Assembly: GCA_030041005.1 (NCBI GenBank)
Contig: JASHOR010000039.1
Location: 1-45,031, forward strand
Reading direction: 5' to 3'
DNA from: Xanthobacteraceae bacterium
GTDB lineage: Bacteria; Pseudomonadota; Alphaproteobacteria; Rhizobiales; Xanthobacteraceae
DNA length: 45,031 nucleotides
Under the pieces are notes generated by a model. The model searched no databases and was not told the DNA's origin. It worked only from the letters and a program-made list of their open reading frames with translations. This document shows, piece by piece, positions 12,445 to 39,272 of the stretch. The translations under genes and the position numbers were made by a program. Numbering within the stretch: the first letter of the stretch is position 1; each line of letters starts with the position of its first letter.

Positions 12445-13935
12445 CTAGCGATCGCAGCCGGCGATCGTGAGGCCGAAACTCGCCTCGTTGATCGCATAGT
12501 CCATCATGTTGCTGCCGTGCACCGTGAACGGAAACACCCGCCAATTTGAAAAAGACGGAGACTTGATCTTCACGCGGGCAAGGCGTCCCCGATCGTCAAA
12601 ATGCACGGCATAGAACAGGGTGCCTCGCGGCGATTCGGTCCAACCAAGGCCTTCCGATCTCGGAGGCGCCTTGCACTCGGTTGCGATGGGTCCGTCCGGC
12701 AAGAGCAGCAGGACCCGCTGAATGAGGCCGATGCTGGCGTCGATCTCGGCCATCCGTATTTGCGCGCGCGCGTGGGCATCGCCCGACTTCCGCACCGGAA
12801 CCGTTACGGGGAGTTCGCCATAGCCGGCATAGGGGTGATCGCGGCGCAGATCGCGGTCGAAGCCCGATGCACGCTGGACCGGTCCGGTGGCGCCCTGATC
12901 AAACGCGACGCGTTGCTCCAGCACGCCGGTCGTTATCAATCGGTCGAGATGACTGTCCGTGCTTTCAAGATGGCGCGCGTAGATCGAATATTTCTCGTGC
13001 AGGTTCTTCAGCTCCGCACCAAGCCATTGCTTGGGTGACAGATCTCGCCGCAGGCCGCCCGGAGTGAGGATGCTCCGGAGAAAGCGGCTGCCGGTCAACC
13101 TGGCGTTGATCTGCTTCGCGCGTTCGGCCAGCAGCTTGCCTTGCGCCTCGCCAACTTTAAGCGTCGTGGTGTGACAGAGGTGGCCGAGATAGTAGAGATG
13201 ATTGTAGAGACGCTCCAATTCGGCAAGCAACACGCGAAGAAGGCGGGCGCGCCGCGGAACGGCGCAGTGAGCGGCCGCCTCAACCGCCTGGCAATAGGCC
13301 AGCGCATGGGCCACGCTGCCGACGCCGGACACCCGTTCCGCGACGACGACGCCACCCATGGGAATGAGGCCCTCAAAGCGTTTTTCCATGCCGCGATGTT
13401 TGAAAAAAAGCCGCGGCTGGTAGTGCAGAATGGCCTCGCCAATGTAAAAGAACAGAAACTCACCGGACTCGAGGACATCGGCGCGGACCGGCCCAAAAGG
13501 CAGCAACTGCACGTCGTCCGTCGCCCCGACCACTTCGGGTACGGCTTGCCGCACAGGTTCTGGCTGGATCGGCACGTCGGCGGGATATTTCGGACTGAAC
13601 GGCGGGCAGACGGGATTGGCGCCGTCGTGCAAAACGAGCCGCTGCGGCTGAGGGTGTTCGCTGAAATCAATGCCGAAGAGGTCGGTAATTTCGCGTTCGT
13701 ACCATCCCATCAGGGGCCAGATGGAGGCCAGGCTGGGAACAGGACCGGTGGGCGCGCATCCCCAGATCGCGAACTCGTCCTGCTTGGCCTCCGTCGCGAC
13801 ATAGCGCAACTCGATGCGGTCCGGCTCCGGATACCACGCATAAGCCATCTGCATGCGGCCGTCGCTGTTGCGCAGGCGCGTTGCCGCATCCCGCAATTGC
13901 GCCGGCTGCAAGGATATAGGCTGGGCCACGTTCAT
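12445..13935 (-). CDS. NuoC-NuoD/HyfG-like large subunit lacking NiFe ligands
   Basis: A 496-residue protein joining a NuoC-like 30-kDa domain (~residues 1-130, WYEREITDLFGIDF) to a NuoD/hydrogenase large-subunit domain. In hydrogenases the NiFe site needs R-x-C-G-x-C near the start of the large-subunit domain and D-P-C-x-x-C at the end. Here the first reads R201-V-S-G-V-G206 and the last G488-L-T-I-A-G493, so all four Cys are replaced. It therefore cannot hold a NiFe site and fits the energy-converting hydrogenase-related (Ehr) class. The ATG at 13935 forms an ATGA overlap with the HyfF-like gene; a longer upstream frame would run back into that gene. The electron donor or acceptor is unknown. 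Confidence 0.88.
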   Translation of the reverse strand: MNVAQPISLQPAQLRDAATRLRNSDGRMQMAYAWYPEPDRIELRYVATEAKQDEFAIWGCAPTGPVPSLASIWPLMGWYEREITDLFGIDFSEHPQPQRLVLHDGANPVCPPFSPKYPADVPIQPEPVRQAVPEVVGATDDVQLLPFGPVRADVLESGEFLFFYIGEAILHYQPRLFFKHRGMEKRFEGLIPMGGVVVAERVSGVGSVAHALAYCQAVEAAAHCAVPRRARLLRVLLAELERLYNHLYYLGHLCHTTTLKVGEAQGKLLAERAKQINARLTGSRFLRSILTPGGLRRDLSPKQWLGAELKNLHEKYSIYARHLESTDSHLDRLITTGVLEQRVAFDQGATGPVQRASGFDRDLRRDHPYAGYGELPVTVPVRKSGDAHARAQIRMAEIDASIGLIQRVLLLLPDGPIATECKAPPRSEGLGWTESPRGTLFYAVHFDDRGRLARVKIKSPSFSNWRVFPFTVHGSNMMDYAINEASFGLTIAGCDR

Positions 13936-15398
13936 GGCGCACCGCTTGCGAGCGTGTGCGCTATGGCGGAAAAATGCTGCCACATCGCCGAGGGCCACCA
14001 GAGACCGAACAACAGGAGCGGCGCCAGCGCCAGCCACATCGGCGCAATGCACCACGCGCTGAGGGCCACACGGCAGGTTCCGCTTGGTCCCGCAGGCGGA
14101 AAGTACATTTCGCGAAAGTGATTGAGGAAGCCGACGAAGATCACGATGAGAAGAATGAGCATGGCCGCGACGGCCCAGGCGTAGCGGGCTTCAAGGCCGC
14201 CGCGCAGAATAATGAGCTCGCTGAGAAACAAACCGAAGGGCGGAGCCCCGGTGATCGCCGCCGCGCCGGCAAGCCATAGCGATCCCTGCACCGGATAGAA
14301 TCGCCACACGTCGCGTATCTCTGCGATCTCCTTGGTGCCGAAGCTGCGCATGACATTGCCGGCACCAAAGAACATCAGAGACTTGTTCAGGGAGTGATTA
14401 AGCATGTGATAAAGCGCGCCGGCGACGCCGAACAGGCCGCCAAAACCGACGCCAAGCGCAATGACCCCCATATGCTCGACGCTCGAATAGGCCATCAACC
14501 GCTTGATGCCATCCTGACGCACAATGAACAGCGCACCGATGACCAACGACAGCACACCGAGCGCCACAAGGACGGTGCGGGCAAAAGACCCCACGCCCGC
14601 CGAATCCGCGACCGCAAGGTAGCGGACGATTCCGAGCATCGCGGCGTTGAGCAGCGCCCCTGAAAGCATCGCGGAGACTGGCGCCGGACTTTCACTGTGC
14701 GCGTCCGGGAGCCAGGTGTGCATCGGGGCGAGGCCGACCTTTGTGCCGTATCCGATCAGCACCAGCAAATAGGCCAGAATGACCAGCGCCGGGTTCATCC
14801 TGGAGGCGCTCTGCTGCAGGGCCGACCAGGTCATGTCGTACACCGGTCCCAGAACGAAGCTGCCGCTCCAGTAAAACAGTACGGTGCCGAGCAGCGCCAG
14901 GCTGATGCCCGCCGACACGATGATGATGTATTTCCACGCCGCCTCGACACTCTCCGCCGCACGCTCAAAGCCGACCAAGAACGTACTGACAAGCGTAGTC
15001 AGCTCGATGACGATCCAGTAGAGGCCCGCATTGTTCATCACCGCGCTAAGCAAAATCGTCAGCGCAAAACTCGAAAACAGCGCGTAGAAGCTCCAGAGTT
15101 TCTCCCCCTCGCCTTCCAGGAGCCGCATGTAGCCAACTGAATAAATCGAGGCGAGAAGATAGACGATCGCCGTGCACAGCGTGACCCACGCGCCCGGCAT
15201 GTCAACGATGATGTAGTTGTCCCAAAAAAGATAAGGTCCCTTGGCGCTGAGGATGGTCACAGCCATGGCGGTGACGAACACGATGACGCTCGCGACCAGA
15301 TTCAATCCTTCCGCGATGCGCTGTCGATGTATTAGCAGACAGCCCGCTGCGGCACCCGCAGGCGACAGCATCATCACCAGAAGAAGAGCTCCAACCAT
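13932..15398 (-). CDS. Ehr complex antiporter-like membrane subunit (HyfF-type)
   Basis: A 488-residue NuoL/M/N-family membrane protein similar to HyfF. It has repeated transmembrane helices, and the family helix segments GYGTKVGLAPMHTWLPDAHS and YHMLNHSLNKSLMFFGAG carry the conserved Lys and His residues of the ion channel. The ATG at 15398 is chosen because it follows the HyfE-like stop by 4 bp and starts directly with a hydrophobic helix; an extension to 15494 would read through that gene. It overlaps the large-subunit start by ATGA, typical of a translationally coupled complex. Proposed role is H+ or Na+ translocation coupled to the redox arm. Confidence 0.88.
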   Translation of the reverse strand: MVGALLLVMMLSPAGAAAGCLLIHRQRIAEGLNLVASVIVFVTAMAVTILSAKGPYLFWDNYIIVDMPGAWVTLCTAIVYLLASIYSVGYMRLLEGEGEKLWSFYALFSSFALTILLSAVMNNAGLYWIVIELTTLVSTFLVGFERAAESVEAAWKYIIIVSAGISLALLGTVLFYWSGSFVLGPVYDMTWSALQQSASRMNPALVILAYLLVLIGYGTKVGLAPMHTWLPDAHSESPAPVSAMLSGALLNAAMLGIVRYLAVADSAGVGSFARTVLVALGVLSLVIGALFIVRQDGIKRLMAYSSVEHMGVIALGVGFGGLFGVAGALYHMLNHSLNKSLMFFGAGNVMRSFGTKEIAEIRDVWRFYPVQGSLWLAGAAAITGAPPFGLFLSELIILRGGLEARYAWAVAAMLILLIVIFVGFLNHFREMYFPPAGPSGTCRVALSAWCIAPMWLALAPLLLFGLWWPSAMWQHFSAIAHTLASGAP

Positions 15399-16085: not shown

Positions 16086-17030
16086 TCAACTCAACTGGTT
16101 TCCGACGATGGAAAGGATTGCGAACACGAAGGAAGCCGCGAGGAGCTCCTGGTAACGATAGAAACGCAGCCGGGATTGGGCTGTCTCGACGACAACGACG
16201 GCCAGCGCGACAAGCAGAAATTTCCCCAGCAACGCGATGATGGACCCGACCACGCCGATGACCGCGCCCCGGTGGGAAAGACCCCACGGCAGCAGCAGAA
16301 CGTTGGTGAAGATCGTGTAGAGGATGAATTGCTTCATCGTCGAGGCCCATTTCAGGAGCGCAAGAAGGGGCCCGGAATATTCAAGGATGCGAGCCTCTTC
16401 GATCATGTAGATTTCGAGATGGGTACTGGAATGGATCGGCAACCGATCCGTTTCGACAATGAGAAGGGTGAAGAAAGCCGCGATGAGAAAAAGATGCGCA
16501 GGCCCCCAGTAGACCGCGGTATTTCCCACCAGCAGATGGTTGACGACGAAGGGAAGCATGGACTTCGCCAGCAACGTAATGCCAACGAACACGACGATGA
16601 GAGTCGGCTCGGCGAGAATGGCAACCATCACTGCGCGGCTCGACCCGATGCCCCCGTAGGCACTGCCGCTGTCGAGACCGGCGAGCACGATCATGAAAGA
16701 GCCGAGCGTCAGGATCAGGCCTCCGCCGAGAATGTCGCCCATGTCCGACAGCGGAAGGGGAAAATCGGTCAGCACCGGGATCAGGATTGGAACGGTCAAC
16801 ATCGCCGTGAACGCGACGATCGGCGTAATCCAGTAAATCCACGATGCCGTTTCCGGCACGACGATCTGTTTGTGAAAGAGCTTCCAGAGATCCCGATAGG
16901 GCTGGAATATGCCGGGCCCCTTGGCCATCTGCACACGCTCTTCGAATTGCAGAATGAGGCCCTGAATCAGCGGCGCGAAAGCGAGAACGGCAGCGACTTG
17001 AGCAATTTGCAGCAGAACGTCTCGGGTCAT
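16086..17030 (-). CDS. NuoH/HyfC-like membrane anchor subunit of Ehr complex
   Basis: A 314-residue membrane protein of the NuoH/HycD/HyfC family, the arm that joins the hydrophilic module to the antiporter subunits. It shows eight or so hydrophobic helices and the acidic cytoplasmic loop VETDRLPIHSSTHLEIYMIE near the quinone-chamber position. The start at ATG 17030 is supported by AGGA about 9 nt upstream and by an ATGA overlap with the stop of a 32-codon leader ORF. An upstream in-frame TTG at 17045 is less likely. It is the first gene of the six-gene operon and is preceded by a fluoride riboswitch. Confidence 0.88.
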   Translation of the reverse strand: MTRDVLLQIAQVAAVLAFAPLIQGLILQFEERVQMAKGPGIFQPYRDLWKLFHKQIVVPETASWIYWITPIVAFTAMLTVPILIPVLTDFPLPLSDMGDILGGGLILTLGSFMIVLAGLDSGSAYGGIGSSRAVMVAILAEPTLIVVFVGITLLAKSMLPFVVNHLLVGNTAVYWGPAHLFLIAAFFTLLIVETDRLPIHSSTHLEIYMIEEARILEYSGPLLALLKWASTMKQFILYTIFTNVLLLPWGLSHRGAVIGVVGSIIALLGKFLLVALAVVVVETAQSRLRFYRYQELLAASFVFAILSIVGNQLS

Positions 17031-17125
17031 TGCGACGTCCTGCAAGATATCTCAAGGTCCACGCAGGCTGCCGACCAGCGCGGGATGACACCAGGCAAAT
17101 TCAGCAATCGAGCCGAAGAGCGCAT
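17027..17125 (-). CDS. 32-codon leader ORF coupled to the Ehr operon
   Basis: A short frame begins at ATG 17125 with AGGAG 6 nt upstream and ends in TGA that overlaps the hyfC-like ATG as ATGA. The peptide (MRSSARLLNLPGVIPRWSAA... ending RTSQ) resembles nothing I know. Its Shine-Dalgarno is part of AGGAGUC (17130-17136), complementary to the 3' strand of the fluoride aptamer. It probably transmits riboswitch state to hyfC translation by coupling. It is too short for coding statistics, so evidence is positional. Confidence 0.55.
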   Translation of the reverse strand: MRSSARLLNLPGVIPRWSAACVDLEISCRTSQ

Positions 17126-17326: not shown

Positions 17327-17395
17327 GTGTCCCGATTCCGAAGTTCGCATCATTATACGGCACCCTCGTTTGCGAACTTCGGAATCGAAGGACAC
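17327..17395 (-). repeat. Dispersed palindromic repeat, element B (inverted copy)
   Basis: A 69-bp copy of palindrome B, reverse orientation relative to the copies at 39 kb. Arms GTGTCC..GATTCCGAAGTTCGCA and TGCGAACTTCGGAATCGGGACAC pair, around a loop containing CGAGGGTGCCG. It differs from the 39-kb copies at one loop base (GTATAATGA for GCATAATGA). It lies between the two aptamers that precede the Ehr operon. Confidence 0.9.
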
Positions 17396-17623
17396 TAGGC
17401 GCGCGACATGGAATCTCCGATACGGCGGGGTGAGAACGCCTTACCGCGGGAGCCTCCATGGCCGCAGCAATTTCACCGATCAAAGCTGACGCGAGGCCGC
17501 GTCGTTCTCGCCGGCCAAATGTCAATAGGCCGAACACCACTGCCTGCCTCCCGGTTGCGCGCATGTTTTCTGCAGCTTCGCACGACGGCGGGCGCCGAAC
17601 AGAGTTCCATCGTCCTGTGCACG

Positions 17624-17674
17624 GCAGGAGTCATCAGCCCAATGGGCGGTTTTGCTCCGGCGATCCCATCCCCA
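17624..17674 (-). ncRNA. Degenerate fluoride-riboswitch-like aptamer
   Basis: The minus strand carries AAAACCGCCC, AUU, then GGGCUGAUGACUCCUGCC, a strong match to the 3' half of the crcB motif, preceded by GGGGAUGGGAUCGCCGG. The 5' half is imperfect: P1 would have an A-C mismatch (GGGAUC/GACUCC), and the only plausible pseudoknot (CUGG/CCGG) needs a 2-nt insertion. UCCUG/CAGGA just downstream could form a competing hairpin. No gene follows before the next aptamer. It may be a decaying duplicate or belong to a lost gene. Confidence 0.5.
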
Positions 17675-17728
17675 GTTCGCTGTAGACGGTCACTGCCGCG
17701 CAATGCCAGGGGCAAACGACGAGCGGGC

Positions 17729-19345
17729 CTAATTGGGTCCTGCGGCACGGACTGAGTTCTCCGCTGCATGCGCCGGCGCGGCGACATCGTCGCCGAAAAT
17801 CGCCGCGTACAGGTCATGCCCGTAACTGGTTTGCAGCGGCTTTGCTTCGATGAGCTTGAACGGCCTCGTGCCGTCGGAATTTCGCTCGGCACGCAAGAAT
17901 ACCGCATTGCGCATGTCTCTGGCAACAAACGCGCTGGTGAATTGATAAAGATGGGTGACGAAAAACACCTTCACACCTCGGTCCAACAGCGCATTAACGA
18001 TCTGGCCGGCTATTTCTGAGCCTTCCCGCTCGTTGGTCGAGGCAAAGGATTCGTTGAACAGCACGAGTGCGTTGGGCCGGAGGCTATCCACAATCTTGCT
18101 CATTCTGCCGAGTTCTTCGTCCCATTTCCCGCTTTCCATTGCGGCGTCCTCTTCCCGCTTGAAATGCGTGAAAAGTCCATCGGATATTTCGGAGACGAAT
18201 GACTTCGCCGACACGAACATGCCCGCTTGCATCATGAGGCCGGCAAGGCCGATGCTGCGCAGAAACGTCGATTTGCCTCCCGTATTTGCGCCGGTGATGA
18301 TGATGATGTCCTTGCCGTCAGCCTCGAGGTCGTTACCGACAACCGATTTGCCCATGCTGAGCGCCAACGACACGTCATGCAGACCGGCAAACGACAACGT
18401 TCTTCGCCCGCCGGGCGCCGCGACGGGAAAGCAAACCGGCTCGCCAAGCTCCGCAAGCCGCGCATGCAGATTCAGGCATCCTATGTAGAAGGCAAGCTCC
18501 ACGCGCAGCATCTGAAAGAAGCTCAGAATGTGGTCTGTTGACTGGGCGAGAGCATTGGCGACCGGGTTCACGCCCTGGTCTTGCAGTCGCGTTAAGGCTT
18601 GTGCGCCCGCTTCGTCTCGTGGATGAAGCTGGAAGGAGTAGCTCCGTGGCTTTTCCCCGAGCAGCCGCATCAGCCAGCCTCGCTCGTCCTTGAGCGGCCT
18701 GCGAAGCACATAGTTACCGCCCTTATTCCCTTTCCCGAGATGAGCGCTGATCAGCGCTCCCGCGCGAAACTTCAACCTATTGAGATGCTCCTCGATATCC
18801 GAAAAGTAATCGTCGCTGAGTTCGTCCAGCAACATCGCAAGGAAATTCGAAAAGGCTTCCGAATTGAATTTCGCGGAATGCTGGTCGGCTGTTTTACGCA
18901 GCCTTTTGAGCGCACCGACGAACATCAGCAGGACTTCGACCGACCGGTGCAGGATGGCCGACGGAGAGCGTGCGTACATCCAGTAATTCTTTCTTTGGCC
19001 GCTGATCGCATCGACGACGATTTGATAGAGTTCCCTTATGACTTGCGGATTCCTGGCGCAGTCCTGATAGGCTTGTTGGCGGTATCGGATCGTCTCCAAA
19101 TCCGACAGGCTCGACAACACTCCGACTTGCGCCACATCGAAGAGGAACCCGTCGTCCCGCGCCATTGCATGAAAGATGAGGTCAAGCCCGAGGTCTTGCC
19201 GCAATGCCGCCTCGTTCCACGGGAGGGCTTGATCAAGGTCCAATCCCTGCGCGTTTCCGCGTCGATTGCGCAATTCATTATCGCGCCGCGCAAAGAGCTG
19301 TTCGGGGTCGAAATCACGCCCCTTGAACATCAAAAATGCTTTCAC
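17729..19345 (-). CDS. MutS-like ATPase B of fluoride-riboswitch operon
   Basis: A 538-residue protein whose C-terminal half is a MutS domain V-type ATPase: Walker A GANTGGKST at ~352-360, Walker B LVLFNESFASTNE and H-loop VTHLYQF. The helical N-terminal half corresponds to the lever/clamp region. The ~500-residue length leaves no room for the N-terminal mismatch-binding domain of MutS1, and there is no Smr nuclease as in MutS2. It begins at GTG 19345, overlapping the stop of gene A as GTGA. Small MutS relatives of this kind are of unknown function and have been noted behind crcB-motif RNAs. A heterodimer with A is a reasonable inference. Confidence 0.82.
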   Translation of the reverse strand: MKAFLMFKGRDFDPEQLFARRDNELRNRRGNAQGLDLDQALPWNEAALRQDLGLDLIFHAMARDDGFLFDVAQVGVLSSLSDLETIRYRQQAYQDCARNPQVIRELYQIVVDAISGQRKNYWMYARSPSAILHRSVEVLLMFVGALKRLRKTADQHSAKFNSEAFSNFLAMLLDELSDDYFSDIEEHLNRLKFRAGALISAHLGKGNKGGNYVLRRPLKDERGWLMRLLGEKPRSYSFQLHPRDEAGAQALTRLQDQGVNPVANALAQSTDHILSFFQMLRVELAFYIGCLNLHARLAELGEPVCFPVAAPGGRRTLSFAGLHDVSLALSMGKSVVGNDLEADGKDIIIITGANTGGKSTFLRSIGLAGLMMQAGMFVSAKSFVSEISDGLFTHFKREEDAAMESGKWDEELGRMSKIVDSLRPNALVLFNESFASTNEREGSEIAGQIVNALLDRGVKVFFVTHLYQFTSAFVARDMRNAVFLRAERNSDGTRPFKLIEAKPLQTSYGHDLYAAIFGDDVAAPAHAAENSVRAAGPN

Positions 19346-20976
19346 GGCCGGGGGCGCCGCTTGATCATGTCGTATGTGAGCCCGTACCGTCGGGCGATCG
19401 CCATGGCGTAAGCGAGACCATCAGCGGGACGCCGCGCAATCTTAAAAGTCCGCAGCTCCGGGTTCTCAGGCACCACCGTGCTCACCATGGAAACGACCTG
19501 GGGGCCGAACGACGCCAGCTCCTCGACAAAGGTAACCCACACGCATGGCGCCCCGAGTTCGATCAAGCGCTCCATTACTCTTTCGCTTAAGAAGGTTTCG
19601 TCCAGAATTGTCGTGGAGGTAAAAATCTCATTCATAATGACGACTGACAGTGGCGTCGTCCGATCAAGGATGTCGCGTATGCGCAACAGGTCATCCTCAA
19701 GCTTGCCGCGCAAATTCTCTACTTTTTCCTCCCTTTCGAAATGCGTTAGAAGCTTATCGAAAAAGAGCAGCGTGGCTTCGCTGCCTGGCACCGGGCACCC
19801 GAGTTTGGCCAGATAGTGGAGCTGCCCGAACGCCCGGGCGAAAGTGGTCTTTCCGCCCTGATTGGGTCCGGAGACGACAAGAATGCGTTCCGGCCCATCA
19901 AGATGGAAATCATTGCAGACGATGGGCAGGCCTTGCTTGAGAAGCTTGTGGGCTAACGCGAGATCGAAACCATCGCGGCTGCGGATCTGCCGGTCGGCAC
20001 TCGAAACCGCGGGGTAGCAGAACGGCAAGCCCGCGCGTCTGAGCGGCGTTATGTATTCCAAATAAGCGAGATAGAACTGGATTTCGCGGTCGAAAACAGC
20101 GATGGTTCGATCGACGAAATCGCGATTCCTTGCGCTGAACTCGGCAAGCGCCCGAAAAACTTCAGGGTATAGATTGGCAACGAACTCCAATATCTTCGCT
20201 TCAACATGGTTCATATCTGCGCTGATGGAGAACTTTACCCTGTAGTCTTTTGCCGCGCTCTGCTTGAATTTGTGGAACGTGCGCTCGACATCGGCGCTGT
20301 AGTCACCTTCCCGTTGATATTTGCGGACCGTGAATCCATTTCCCTTTACGAGCACGCAATATTCGATCTTGGCCAGTTCGACCTTGAGTTCTGTCGCGCG
20401 CGCATGCATCGACTGAAAATGTTCTGCGCGGGAGTAACCGATGAGATAATCGCGAAACGCCATGAAGCCCCGTGACCGCAGGTCGCAATCCGCAAGCTCC
20501 GCTGCAAAGACCTTGATGACCTCGCAATAAATCTCGACCCCGTCGAGAAACCAGGCTTCCTTCTGTTCCTTGTAAGGCATCTTTTCGGTTTGAATGAGGT
20601 GGCTGCGCACCGCCCGCATCTGCTCGGCGAAGGCGCACACGCGTTCGCACAAGCCGGGACGTTCGAGATCCCGCATCACTTCATGGCGATACTCGATGGC
20701 ATCGATGCGCGGCAGGCAGGCGTAGAAGAGAGGCTTCAAATTGTACTCGTCTCGCTTCGCTGTGATGGCCTCGACGATCTGGTCGCAGTTCAGGTCGGAG
20801 AAGAATTCCGGGGGCAACAGCGTCTTGTCGTTGGTGCTATCTTCAGGTCTTGCGAAAAGAATGCTGCAGAACGGAGAAGGATGGCGCATCTCAACCAATG
20901 AGACGCCGGCGTTGGCGATCGGCGGCCGGCGGGCGCCGTTGAGTCTGGCGACATTGATTTTCGGTGCCGCAGCCAT
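19342..20976 (-). CDS. MutS-like ATPase A of fluoride-riboswitch operon
   Basis: A 544-residue paralogue of the next gene. Its domain V has Walker A GPNQGGKTT at ~370-378 and Walker B LSVVIMNEIFTSTT. Where MutS proteins have a T-H in the H-loop, this has VTFVEELASF, so the His is missing. The helical core and the HFEREE segment before the Walker B align with HFKREE of protein B, supporting common ancestry. ATG 20976 follows GGGAG. The 5' leader of ~270 nt holds a fluoride riboswitch and terminator. DNA binding is possible but no mismatch-recognition domain is seen. Confidence 0.82.
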   Translation of the reverse strand: MAAAPKINVARLNGARRPPIANAGVSLVEMRHPSPFCSILFARPEDSTNDKTLLPPEFFSDLNCDQIVEAITAKRDEYNLKPLFYACLPRIDAIEYRHEVMRDLERPGLCERVCAFAEQMRAVRSHLIQTEKMPYKEQKEAWFLDGVEIYCEVIKVFAAELADCDLRSRGFMAFRDYLIGYSRAEHFQSMHARATELKVELAKIEYCVLVKGNGFTVRKYQREGDYSADVERTFHKFKQSAAKDYRVKFSISADMNHVEAKILEFVANLYPEVFRALAEFSARNRDFVDRTIAVFDREIQFYLAYLEYITPLRRAGLPFCYPAVSSADRQIRSRDGFDLALAHKLLKQGLPIVCNDFHLDGPERILVVSGPNQGGKTTFARAFGQLHYLAKLGCPVPGSEATLLFFDKLLTHFEREEKVENLRGKLEDDLLRIRDILDRTTPLSVVIMNEIFTSTTILDETFLSERVMERLIELGAPCVWVTFVEELASFGPQVVSMVSTVVPENPELRTFKIARRPADGLAYAMAIARRYGLTYDMIKRRPRP

Positions 20977-21147: not shown

Positions 21148-21170
21148 AAAAAACCCGCCTTCGCGGCGGG
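21148..21170 (-). terminator. Intrinsic terminator of the fluoride riboswitch
   Basis: Minus strand CCCGCC-GCGAA-GGCGGG followed by six U. It lies ~32 nt after the aptamer and ~170 nt before the MutS-like gene A, so read-through must be controlled for the operon to be expressed. Confidence 0.88.
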
Positions 21171-21201
21171 TCGAGGAATCTCTCCCACCGCGATCATCCG
21201 C

Positions 21202-21247
21202 GGTAGGAGTCATTAGCCTTTCGGCGGATAAGGGCGACTCCATGCCC
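21202..21247 (-). ncRNA. Fluoride riboswitch (crcB motif) upstream of the mutS-like pair
   Basis: The minus strand reads GGGCAUGGAGUCGCCC, UUAUCCGCC, GAAA, then GGCUAAUGACUCCUACC. This gives pseudoknot GGGC/GCCC, perfect P1 GGAGUC/GACUCC, P3 GCC/GGC, and the crcB-motif 3' signature. The expression platform is legible. The aptamer 3' strand CUCCUACCGCGG (21198-21209) can pair with CGCGGUGGGAG (21182-21192). That second strand can instead pair as CGCGGUGGG with CCCGCCGCG (21162-21170), which destroys the CCCGCC/GGCGGG terminator. Fluoride binding should therefore favour antitermination, turning the operon on. Confidence 0.9.
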
Positions 21248-21254
21248 TTTGGCG

Positions 21255-21282
21255 AATATAGAGAGCCCAGGGACAGCGTCAA
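21255..21282 (-). promoter_or_regulatory. Sigma70-type promoter for the riboswitch-mutS-like operon
   Basis: TTGACG (21277-21282) and TATATT (21255-21260) on the minus strand with a 16-nt spacer. The expected transcription start falls at about 21247-21249, immediately before the first aptamer nucleotides. Confidence 0.75.
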
Positions 21283-21506: not shown

Positions 21507-21896
21507 TCAGCAGCAACGTTTAGGCTCATCATCACCCTCATCGGGTTCGCTAGAAGCCTCTCGCCCCATCCTGGATTCCTGTTCTCGCAGCCAAGACAGG
21601 ATGTCACCGCGCTGGCCGCCGATCGGGCGCGCCCAACGCAGGCTCTTCAATGGCTTGTTCTCGGCGCCTGCCCACCAATATTCCTTGATCACCATAAGTG
21701 ACCAGCCGCGACGACCCAGCCGCGTGAGGGTGAAAATATCGATCGTTAGGCCGTGCTTCGGTCCGCTTGCGCTGTGCCGCTGGCGTTCAAACTCGACATC
21801 GTCGTGGGTCCAGCATGACCGCGTCAGGCCTCGATTTGTGGTGCTAACCAAAAGGTCGAACACCCTGAAGAATGATGGGTCGGCGAAGCTTTTCAT
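21507..21896 (-). CDS. Conserved hypothetical protein
   Basis: A 129-residue soluble, tryptophan-rich protein (VIKEYWWAGAENKPLKSLRW, then GGQRGDILSWLREQE) with an acidic tail. I cannot assign a domain. The ATG at 21896 is the only good start. It is upstream of the riboswitch promoter on the same strand with ~220 bp between, so it is likely transcribed separately. Confidence 0.55.
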   Translation of the reverse strand: MKSFADPSFFRVFDLLVSTTNRGLTRSCWTHDDVEFERQRHSASGPKHGLTIDIFTLTRLGRRGWSLMVIKEYWWAGAENKPLKSLRWARPIGGQRGDILSWLREQESRMGREASSEPDEGDDEPKRCC

Positions 21897-27390: not shown

Positions 27391-29181
27391 ATGAAAATCA
27401 GGTTGCCCCAGCGGATCGGCCTCTTCCGACTATCTCTCATTGCTGTCTGCGTGGGACTCATCACGGGATTCGGCGCTGTTGCCTTCCGCGCGTTGATCGG
27501 TCTCATCCACAACATCGGTTTTCTCGGCTCGTTGTCTGTTCCATATGACGCGAGCATTTTCACGCCGCCAAGCCCTTGGGGACCGTTCGTGATCCTCGTG
27601 CCGGTCGTTGGCGGAATCATCGTCACCTTTTTGATCAATAATTTCGCGCCGGAGGCGCGCGGCCACGGCGTGCCGGAGGTCATGGACGCGATCTACTACA
27701 ACAACGGCGTGATCCGGCCGATCGTCGCGCTCATAAAGTCTCTCGCCTCCGCGCTCGCCATCGGCACCGGCGCAGCAGTCGGCCGCGAGGGCCCGATCAT
27801 CCAAATCGGCTCCGCGCTCGGTTCGACGTTCGGCCAGGTGATTCACATGGCGCCCTGGCAGCGCATCACGCTGGTCGCCGCCGGAGCGGGGGCCGGCATT
27901 GCTGCCACCTTCAATACGCCGATCGGCGGCGTGATGTTTGCCATCGAGCTGATGATGCCGGAACTGAGCGCGCGCACGTTCCTGCCCGTCGCACTGGCGA
28001 CCGGCACGGCGACGTTCATCGGCCGCATTTTCTTCGGCATCCATCCGGCTTTCACGGTTCCCACCGATCTGATCACCTCGGCCCATCCGGCGACCCTGGC
28101 CGCATTGTTGCTGTTCGCTGCGCTCGGCGCGATCGTCGGTGTCGTTGCAGCAGGCTTTGTCCGGGGACTCACTTTGGCCGAGGACTTATTCGAGCGCATA
28201 AAAAATACCTACGTGCGGCACATGCTCGGCATGCTGGCGCTCGGCATTCTGATGTACGTGCTGTTGCGCACGGCCGGTCACTACTACGTCGAAGGCGTCG
28301 GCTACGCGACGATTCAGGCGATCCTGACCGGCGGGCTAAACCTCCCCATGCTGCTGATTCTGCTCTTCGTGGCCAAGCTTTGCGCCACGTCAACGAGCCT
28401 CGGCTCCGGATCTTCCGGCGGAATATTCTCGCCCTCGCTGTTCATGGGTGCGACGATCGGCGGCGCCTTCGGCGCCTTTGTCACTGCGGTCCAGCCGGCG
28501 GATGGCGTCACCACGGCGACCGGCGCGATCATCGGTATGGCTGCAATGGTCGGCGGCGGCACCGGCGCCGCCATGACCGCGGTCACCATGATCTTCGAGA
28601 TGACGCGCGATTACGACCTGGTAATGCCGAGCATCGTCGCCGTGGCGCTGGCCATCGGCGTGCGCCGGCTGCTGTCGGCGGAAAATATCTACACCATCAA
28701 GCTCGTCGGCCGAGGCCACTTCATACCGAAGGCGTTGTACGCGAATATGTTTCTGGTTCGACGCGCCAGCGCCGTGATGCAGCGGAAGATCGTCGTCGTG
28801 AGCGCTGATGCCGATCTAGATGAATTTCTACGCCGGCATTGCGGTGAACAGGGCTTCATGCATGTCGTCGTGACACGAGGTGATCACGTCGCCGGAATAG
28901 CGCGCGTCCACACCGGCCTGCACCGCGGCGCCGAGACGGCTTACAAGGGAATAAGTTTCGGCGAGATCGCGCAGCGGAATTTCACCCTCGCCCGCGAGAC
29001 TGACGTTATGTTCGACGTGGTGCAGCGCATGGCGCGCCGCAACGCCGACATGGCAATAGTCACGAGCCGCGATGGACGCTGGCGGCCATCGCAGATCGTC
29101 GGCATCGTCACCAAGGAACACATCGCCGACTCGGTCGCCGAAAGCATCAAACCCTTTGGGCACGCTGCCAAGAGCGTCTAA
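27391..29181 (+). CDS. ClC-family chloride channel/antiporter with CBS domains
   Basis: A 596-residue membrane protein. The three ClC selectivity motifs are present: GHGVPE, GREGP at ~131-135 with the gating Glu133, and GSGSSGGIFSP. The ~140 C-terminal residues form a CBS-pair module (MQRKIVVVSADADLDEF; MARRNADMAIVTSRDG). Motifs are the ordinary chloride type, not those of the fluoride-specific ClC-F branch, so it is not the missing fluoride exporter by this evidence. It moves Cl-, probably against H+. No riboswitch is seen in the 174-bp upstream gap. Confidence 0.9.
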   Translation: MKIRLPQRIGLFRLSLIAVCVGLITGFGAVAFRALIGLIHNIGFLGSLSVPYDASIFTPPSPWGPFVILVPVVGGIIVTFLINNFAPEARGHGVPEVMDAIYYNNGVIRPIVALIKSLASALAIGTGAAVGREGPIIQIGSALGSTFGQVIHMAPWQRITLVAAGAGAGIAATFNTPIGGVMFAIELMMPELSARTFLPVALATGTATFIGRIFFGIHPAFTVPTDLITSAHPATLAALLLFAALGAIVGVVAAGFVRGLTLAEDLFERIKNTYVRHMLGMLALGILMYVLLRTAGHYYVEGVGYATIQAILTGGLNLPMLLILLFVAKLCATSTSLGSGSSGGIFSPSLFMGATIGGAFGAFVTAVQPADGVTTATGAIIGMAAMVGGGTGAAMTAVTMIFEMTRDYDLVMPSIVAVALAIGVRRLLSAENIYTIKLVGRGHFIPKALYANMFLVRRASAVMQRKIVVVSADADLDEFLRRHCGEQGFMHVVVTRGDHVAGIARVHTGLHRGAETAYKGISFGEIAQRNFTLARETDVMFDVVQRMARRNADMAIVTSRDGRWRPSQIVGIVTKEHIADSVAESIKPFGHAAKSV

Positions 29182-38950: not shown

Positions 38951-39111
38951 GTGTGGCGGTTCAGAAATCCGCATCAGTTCTGCCGCGACCTCGTCATGCG
39001 GATTTCTGAACCAAAGCCACACGAGATCAATAAGTTGCCAGTGTCCTTCGATTCCGAAGTTCGCAAACGAGGGTGCCGCATAATGATGCGAACTTCGGAA
39101 TCGGGACACTC
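38951..39111 (+). repeat. 161-bp palindromic unit A-B, copy 1
   Basis: Element A is a palindrome with arms GTGTGGC..TTCAGAAATCCGCAT and ATGCGGATTTCTGAA..GCCACAC. Element B has arms GTGTCC..GATTCCGAAGTTCGCA and TGCGAACTTCGGAATCGGGACAC. They are joined by GAGATCAATAAGTTGCCA. The unit is identical to the copy that follows. Confidence 0.95.
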
Positions 39112-39272
39112 GTGTGGCGGTTCAGAAATCCGCATCAGTTCTGCCGCGACCTCGTCATGCGGATTTCTGAACCAAAGCCACACGAGATCAATAAGTTGCC
39201 AGTGTCCTTCGATTCCGAAGTTCGCAAACGAGGGTGCCGCATAATGATGCGAACTTCGGAATCGGGACACGA
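39112..39272 (+). repeat. 161-bp palindromic unit A-B, copy 2
   Basis: An exact tandem duplicate of the preceding unit through the GGGACAC that closes element B. The last two positions drift into unique sequence ahead of the LLM gene. Confidence 0.95.

Follow-up and report, generated by a model that had tools for sequence, protein, structure and literature searches.

According to Weinberg 2010 (PMC2864571), the crcB motif of fluoride riboswitches precedes genes for mutS and for formate hydrogen lyase, and since this association has been in print from 2010, the link between the riboswitch and mutS genes is not new. In the B. cereus crcB switch, which serves as a model of co-transcriptional folding (PMC11077080), the aptamer competes with a terminator, and the hairpin capturing the aptamer strand is itself the intrinsic terminator, as far as the accessible parts of two reports go (PMC11077080, PMC13273304). 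The word "anti-terminator", where it appears in the available text of PMC8752731, denotes the docked state of the B. cereus RNA. Terminator, antiterminator and anti-antiterminator have been named as three separate stems for the TPP and FMN riboswitches of B. subtilis (PMC4448311, available text). In the partly accessible open literature we found no fluoride riboswitch described with a distinct antiterminator stem. A three-stem platform thus appears to be new for this family, while the sensor family, the mutS link and the three-stem logic are already known.

Here we describe a locus of a Xanthobacteraceae bacterium contained in 45,031 nt of contig JASHOR010000039.1 (this whole stretch is referred to as the window), in which two MutS-like ATPase genes are proposed to be controlled by a transcription attenuator of the fluoride-ON type whose three stems compete; we assign this reading a probability of roughly 0.7. 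An initial annotation had interpreted the leader as a fluoride-ON antitermination circuit in front of a tandem MutS-like pair. Judged from sequence, the circuit is supported, since every predicted element is present, the energies fit and the layout recurs in relatives, and the pair was confirmed as two overlapping genes downstream of the switch, each encoding MutS domain V. The features of the locus, all located on the minus strand, are:

21255..21282 (-), sigma-70-like promoter; -35 TTGACG 21282-21277, 16-nt spacer, -10 TATATT 21260-21255
21197..21256 (-), fluoride riboswitch aptamer RF01734; cmscan 45.2 bits
21182..21209 (-), hairpin 1, proposed anti-antiterminator; 21209-21199 with 21192-21182, 11 bp
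21162..21192 (-), proposed antiterminator; 21192-21184 with 21170-21162, 9 bp, -16.3 kcal/mol
21148..21172 (-), intrinsic terminator; 21172-21165 with 21159-21152, 8 bp, -15.3 kcal/mol; U-tract 21153-21148
19342..20976 (-), MutS-like ATPase A; 544 aa
17729..19345 (-), MutS-like ATPase B; 538 aa, 4-nt overlap with A
17618..17682 (-), second fluoride riboswitch (switch 2); 37.1 bits
17149..17210 (-), third fluoride riboswitch (switch 3); 49.4 bits
9644..17045 (-), Hyf/Ech-like membrane complex genes (HycD-, HyfE-, HyfF-, HyfG-, HyfI- and HyfB-like), behind switch 3

Searching the whole window with cmscan matched RF01734 at 21256-21197(-) with 45.2 bits as compared to a gathering score of 34 (E 1.9e-9), and the crcB aptamer proposed initially was thus recovered by the Infernal search with the Rfam model that had been suggested as its check. 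Read by eye against the known fold, P1 is formed by 21247-21244 and 21235-21232 and the pseudoknot by GGAGUC (21241-21236) and GACUCC (21211-21206); the conserved AUGACUCCU is present. According to covariance-model searches, the host genome (4.9 Mb, 95% complete) carries three fluoride riboswitches, all within this locus; the initial annotation covered one of them, and the two others (17682-17618 and 17210-17149) lie on the same strand. The near-consensus promoter was found at the position given initially, its hexamers TTGACG and TATATT, 16 nt apart, agreeing with 10/12 consensus letters. Since 3 promoter-like sites occurred in the 4.5 kb scanned versus 1.2 +/- 1.4 in shuffled sequences, the promoter match taken by itself says little. 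Among eight close homologous leaders (the window; L007:7757, 4103 and 943; L009:4294; L010:6215 and 4512; L008:7780), TTGACG is present 35-41 nt before the first G of the aptamer in seven; in the eighth, L007:4103, the script picked a nearer TTGACA, and TTGACG is also present further upstream. A good -10 match is confined to the window (5/6 letters), the other seven leaders retaining 3 or 4 of 6. As 7 nt lie between the -10 box and P1, whose first base is 21247, transcription may plausibly begin at the aptamer or just upstream of it. Upstream of the promoter, a 129-aa gene (21507-21896(-)) yielded no Pfam or NCBIfam match; a protein of locus L010 (1162-1590), 61% identical to its product over 113 aa, is encoded behind a fluoride riboswitch (849-915).

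Downstream of the aptamer, hairpin 1 is formed by the arms CUCCUACCGCG and CGCGGUGGGAG (11 bp, -20.7 kcal/mol) and uses the CUCC of the pseudoknot. The pairing of 21182-21192 with 21198-21209 had been proposed for this element: the 11 bp are exact, but 21198 is one base too far, the arm ending at 21199. The terminator was located where it had been placed initially, comprising an 8-bp stem of -15.3 kcal/mol with six U (21153-21148) at its 3' side. No U-tract follows hairpin 1 in the window, where AGAUUCCUCG comes next; the U-tract is found only behind the second hairpin. The antiterminator, likewise claimed initially for 21162-21170 with 21184-21192, comprises 9 bp (-16.3 kcal/mol), a pairing that was reached by 0/2000 shuffles of the terminator 5' arm and loop. 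Hence, one strand, the 3' arm of hairpin 1, can enter two mutually exclusive stems, one of which would block the terminator, and because this arm complements the 5' arm of a separate terminator, hairpin 1 can act as an anti-antiterminator. Sequence and comparison thus provide the aptamer family, the promoter match, three possible stems, their recurrence in relatives and the gene order.

From this arrangement we infer fluoride binding by the window RNA, an order of folding and a change in expression. Without fluoride, hairpin 1 would capture the 3' strand of the aptamer pseudoknot; having no U-tract of its own, it would hide the 3' arm capable of forming the antiterminator, so that the separate terminator could fold and transcription would halt before the genes. 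With fluoride, which the aptamer is known to bind as a Mg-fluoride complex, the pseudoknot and the next U would be locked and hairpin 1 would shrink from 11 to 6 pairs. Its freed 3' arm would then capture the terminator 5' arm, in this scheme a mimic of the aptamer 3' strand, before the terminator 3' arm is made, and polymerase would continue.

With the B. cereus switch, as described in the accessible literature, the window shares the aptamer family, the capture of CUCC by a downstream hairpin and the expected fluoride-ON control of transcription. However, in the B. cereus type a U-tract directly follows the capturing hairpin, whereas in the window this hairpin is devoid of one and a second hairpin terminates, linked to the first by the possible antiterminator. 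The TPP and FMN attenuators follow the same logic of three mutually exclusive stems in the available description, but the sensor in the window is a fluoride pseudoknot, i.e. another aptamer and ligand, and the expected logic is ON. Alternatively, the window could harbor a two-state switch as in B. cereus: hairpin 1, in competition with the pseudoknot, would itself terminate transcription effectively or make the polymerase pause, while the second hairpin would be just a back-up terminator and the antiterminator complementarity incidental. Hairpin 1 indeed occupies the position of the B. cereus terminator stem (PMC13273304, available text), but the AGAUUCCUCG behind it in place of a U-tract speaks against such a role. 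We regard this two-state switch as rather unlikely, also in view of the specificity of the second terminator and of its complementarity to hairpin 1, as detailed below.

The sequence of the second terminator is nearly confined to riboswitch sites. The exact string CCCGCC-N3-6-GGCGGGTTTT occurs once in the 4.9-Mb host genome, at the riboswitch of the window, and its arm-swapped form yielded 0 matches there. In eight relatives, picked for having matches to R2, a model of the layout described below, 10/13 sites of the terminator sequence coincide with R2 riboswitch sites, and the other three are not near any match to R1, our riboswitch model. The possibility that CCCGCC/GGCGGG represents an ordinary terminator was consequently rejected for the host genome (1 site) and mostly rejected for the eight relatives (10/13 sites at riboswitches).

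The succession of aptamer, hairpin 1 and terminator is common to the eight leaders (alignment A2), and the R2 model matched in 34/397 genomes of the order, the host included. R2 was run on 62 chosen sources, and 30/42 order-scan matches outside the host, i.e. those within loci examined, were used. After one of 182 instances (L128) was dropped for lack of a recognisable motif, 181 were classified by our own rules: 47 exhibit a CUCC hairpin followed by T-rich DNA, arranged as in B. cereus; in 44 a terminator stands apart further downstream, and the remaining 90 show neither. The 47 instances, which include six of the three-stem candidates, are in favor of a two-state switch. These candidates number 45 in total: 39/44 separate-terminator instances (5 were left out because their stem or T run was weak) and 6/47 instances with CUCC hairpin and T-rich DNA. 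In some of them, e.g. L009:4294 and L010:6215, T-rich DNA follows hairpin 1, which might for this reason terminate weakly on its own in such leaders.

The complementarity between hairpin 1 and the second terminator, which a two-state switch would leave to chance, was assessed in all 45 candidates. When the 3' arm of hairpin 1 was compared with the terminator 5' arm and loop, shuffle p values were <= 0.05 in 28/45 and <= 0.01 in 16/45 candidates; they exceeded 0.05 in 17/45, including L007:943 of the eight close leaders. Cognate pairing averaged -14.24 kcal/mol as compared to -11.91 +/- 0.35 (sd) kcal/mol for permuted partners, and 0/5000 permutations were as good; these 45 candidates were not selected on the pairing itself, and cognate pairing was likewise the stronger in a set with such selection (n = 40). 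Both permutations and shuffles leave common descent among the alphaproteobacterial leaders in place. They were chosen as control because the alphaproteobacterial loci provided 10 background terminators only, which is too few. At the centre of the shared arm, which a regular expression placed in 30/40 cases, the letters are C-G in 13, U-G in 11, U-A in 5 and the mismatch C-A in 1; covariation at this single column was not significant (Fisher p = 0.18) and was rejected as proof. Other sequence solutions, outside the CCCGCC/CCCACC type, were found in L015:11346, L065:1863, L066:5479 and L013:198, where 0, 0, 1 and 1, respectively, of 123 background terminators paired as well as the cognate one.

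Folding calculations were carried out to compare the states energetically. When the whole platform of the window was left free, the minimum comprised hairpin 1 and the terminator (-37.4 kcal/mol). Holding CUCCU, as stand-in for the fluoride-bound pseudoknot strand and the linchpin U, shifted the minimum to the antiterminator (-29.9 kcal/mol) as compared to a shortened hairpin 1 plus terminator (about -24.6 kcal/mol by our own sum of the two stems), and the probability of the terminator stem decreased from 0.97 to 0.37. At equilibrium, the terminator was lost upon holding the pseudoknot strand in only 10/45 candidate leaders, the window among them; in the near-identical leader L010:6215 it stayed at 0.97, and of the four leaders with other sequence solutions only L065 switched. 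Equilibrium folding was therefore rejected as general proof of switching, and the 35/45 candidates that do not switch to the antiterminator in this calculation would fit a two-state switch. Before the terminator 3' arm exists, however, the antiterminator reached a probability >= 0.5 in 41/45 leaders with the strand held and in 17/45 with the strand free. The window belongs to both groups: at this stage its antiterminator has a probability of 0.74 without and 0.75 with the pseudoknot strand held. Since these values are about equal, the OFF state of the three-stem attenuator would require that hairpin 1 forms first and is kept, i.e. kinetic trapping, and with 10/45 leaders switching at equilibrium, most leaders would need kinetic folding. 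The contrast between 10/45 leaders at equilibrium and 41/45 versus 17/45 at the intermediate stage suggests that the order of folding during transcription decides, by analogy to what has been reported for the B. cereus switch (PMC11077080, accessible text).

Taken together, the balance tips, less firmly than for the window itself, towards a second, undescribed class of transcriptional platform among fluoride riboswitches. In this class, the hairpin capturing the pseudoknot would serve as anti-antiterminator and a separate terminator would mimic the aptamer 3' strand; it would be frequent in Alphaproteobacteria, exist with other sequence solutions in other phyla and command fluoride-stress islands, including the MutS-like ATPase pair with a target other than mismatches. 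A study of covariation across whole riboswitches, according to its available text, aligned experimentally validated terminators located 5-40 nt after the aptamer (PMC13273304). In the window, 49 nt lie between the Rfam aptamer end and the last U, and this leader may for this reason have been left out of that alignment.

Control need not be of the same kind at all three switches. In switch 3, folding pairs the strand CUCCUUUC with the Shine-Dalgarno-like GAGAGGAG preceding an ATG, and this switch looks translational for that reason, as far as modelling goes. By extension, the leader of the MutS-like genes might chiefly govern ribosome access to mutS-A. We consider this the least probable of all readings, because about 170 nt separate the terminator from the annotated mutS-A start and a terminator is present in the leader at all. 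Behind switch 3 lies the Hyf/Ech-like operon. The large subunits of [NiFe] hydrogenases carry two CxxC motifs that form the Ni site. In the large subunit encoded here (12445-14055(-)), ERVSGVGS stands in place of the first CxxC and a DPCxxC is lacking; the Ni-site cysteines are also absent from its counterpart in L007, a locus of a Xanthobacteraceae metagenome-assembled genome, and no DPCxxC was found in 8 other relatives, several of which are cut off. As the large subunit is devoid of the Ni-site cysteines, the operon probably encodes a hydrogenase-related complex and not formate hydrogenlyase. A short open frame of 32 codons (17027-17125(-)) is located between switch 3 and the HycD-like start and has a partner in L007. 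In Lucifera butyrica (L076:4669-4934(-)), three fluoride riboswitches in a row precede a Hyf-like operon, each with a CUCC hairpin followed by T-rich DNA; two of them scored above the cmscan cut-off, and the third was detected by R1.

Switch 2 possesses no terminator by our own rule, and no recognised gene lies behind it, the short frames there being outside the family search. In L007, the counterpart of switch 2 (11268) lies in front of a DUF190 gene; a DUF190 remnant behind switch 2 was considered and rejected, since tblastn returned nothing significant. Given that switch 2 is devoid of both a recognised platform and the DUF190 gene of its counterpart, decay may have occurred in this locus. 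The first leader could likewise be a constitutive tandem terminator or a decayed switch, with an aptamer that no longer regulates, as may hold for switch 2. This is very unlikely: the eight homologous leaders all retain the aptamer core together with hairpin 1 and the terminator, the window switches in equilibrium folding and both MutS-like frames are open. A palindromic repeat, CGATTCCGAAGTTCGCA-N21-reverse complement, is found at 17333-17387 and 39049-39264. Allowing up to 2 mismatches, its CGATTCCGAAGTTCGCA half-site has 309 matches in the host genome versus 1 for the backwards control; some copies of the repeat are 161 bp apart, and one copy lies between switches 2 and 3, where L007 carries the DUF190 gene.

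We next consider the products of the genes that the three-stem attenuator is proposed to control. The true start of MutS-like A may be located further downstream than annotated, because its closest relatives align from residue 8-17 and many of 80 relatives from about 32-38. MutS domain V (PF00488) is the only Pfam domain in A and B; Pfam detected neither the mismatch-binding domain I nor the connector domain in either protein, and the NCBIfam MutS1/MutS2 models scored 58-73 bits as compared to cut-offs of 400-642. Assignment to KamC, the reactivase of lysine 5,6-aminomutase, was also rejected (31.7 and 67.3 bits versus the NF052383 cut-off of 300); the stretch of the pair matching this model best is the ATPase part. 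Walker A is kept in both proteins, while the Asp of Walker B is replaced by Asn in both (NE, where the aligned chains of MutS2 and MutS read DE); this residue is invariant in 28/28 A proteins (N449) and nearly invariant (at least 90%) in 28 B proteins (N431). The predicted fold of MutS-B comes nearest to those of MutSbeta and the MutS2 core with TM-scores near 0.5; the AlphaFold model (mean pLDDT 70) was used for the fold class only, and that of MutS-A (mean pLDDT 59) was discarded. The pair hence resembles MutS2 core and MutS family ATPases in domain V and in the fold of B, but differs from them by its size of about 540 aa, by having no Pfam match outside domain V and by the Asn in Walker B. 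We infer a heterodimeric ATPase of the MutS type with a target other than mismatches.

Relatives of MutS-A were collected by a scan of genome contigs, and the best 80 of 265 were analysed. Among these 80, which include Xanthobacteraceae, Moorella, Thermoanaerobacter, Desulfosporosinus, Chloroflexi, Campylobacterota and Paraburkholderia, MutS-B directly follows MutS-A in 78. A riboswitch, with R1 matches accepted up to E 0.1, is located <=600 nt upstream of MutS-A in 45/80 and somewhere in the locus in 66/80, leaving 14/80 with none; in the 10 of these 14 loci that were submitted to cmscan, it detected no fluoride riboswitch. The upstream count of 45/80 is probably too low, because R1 misses some pseudoknot variants, as exemplified by L075:12093-12165, found by cmscan only. 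L007 contains seven R1 matches, followed among other genes by those of the MutS pair and the hydrogenase-like operon, by DUF190 and FtsH genes and by a block coding for enolase and a NUDIX protein. In the L010 contig, labelled Candidatus Acidiferrales, MutS genes and leaders closely resemble those of Alphaproteobacteria; the contig is perhaps mis-binned or transferred. Within the order, MutS-A was found in 3/297 genomes, the host included, and thus has a patchy distribution; the idea that the order carries the pair in general was rejected.

Of 72,556 plasmid records, 45 also carry relatives of MutS-A; 21 of these 45 are typed as conjugative, and the hosts include Klebsiella, Enterobacter, Citrobacter, Burkholderia and Rhodococcus. 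In pY546 of Enterobacter roggenkampii, a fluoride riboswitch is followed by genes for an antiporter, a universal stress protein, MutS-A and finally MutS-B, the latter matching in two overlapping pieces; crcB, phosphoglycerate mutase, enolase, universal stress protein and a DHHA2 protein are neighbors. This gene set resembles the fluoride operon of E. cloacae FRM in its accessible description (PMC5533749). The host genome (95% complete) itself yielded no match for CrcB/Fluc and six for CLC. One CLC channel-like gene with a CBS domain is located in the window (27391-29181(+)), and no riboswitch was found nearby.

Relative to the cases of 2010, as far as the accessible text goes, the same two gene classes stand behind the same motif, but here both are united in one locus with three riboswitches (PMC2864571). 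In the locus described here, the mutS-like genes stand in tandem, no domain for mismatch recognition was detected in their products, and the "formate hydrogen lyase" is devoid of Ni-site cysteines; the comparison with the 2010 cases covers the motif and the gene classes.

If true, the three-stem version would represent a second naturally evolved readout of the same small pseudoknot. The locus bundles the MutS-like pair and a hydrogenase-like complex lacking the Ni site behind separate fluoride switches, to which a relative adds FtsH, enolase, NUDIX and DUF190, and owing to this bundling, the function of the MutS-like pair could be tested by removing its genes.
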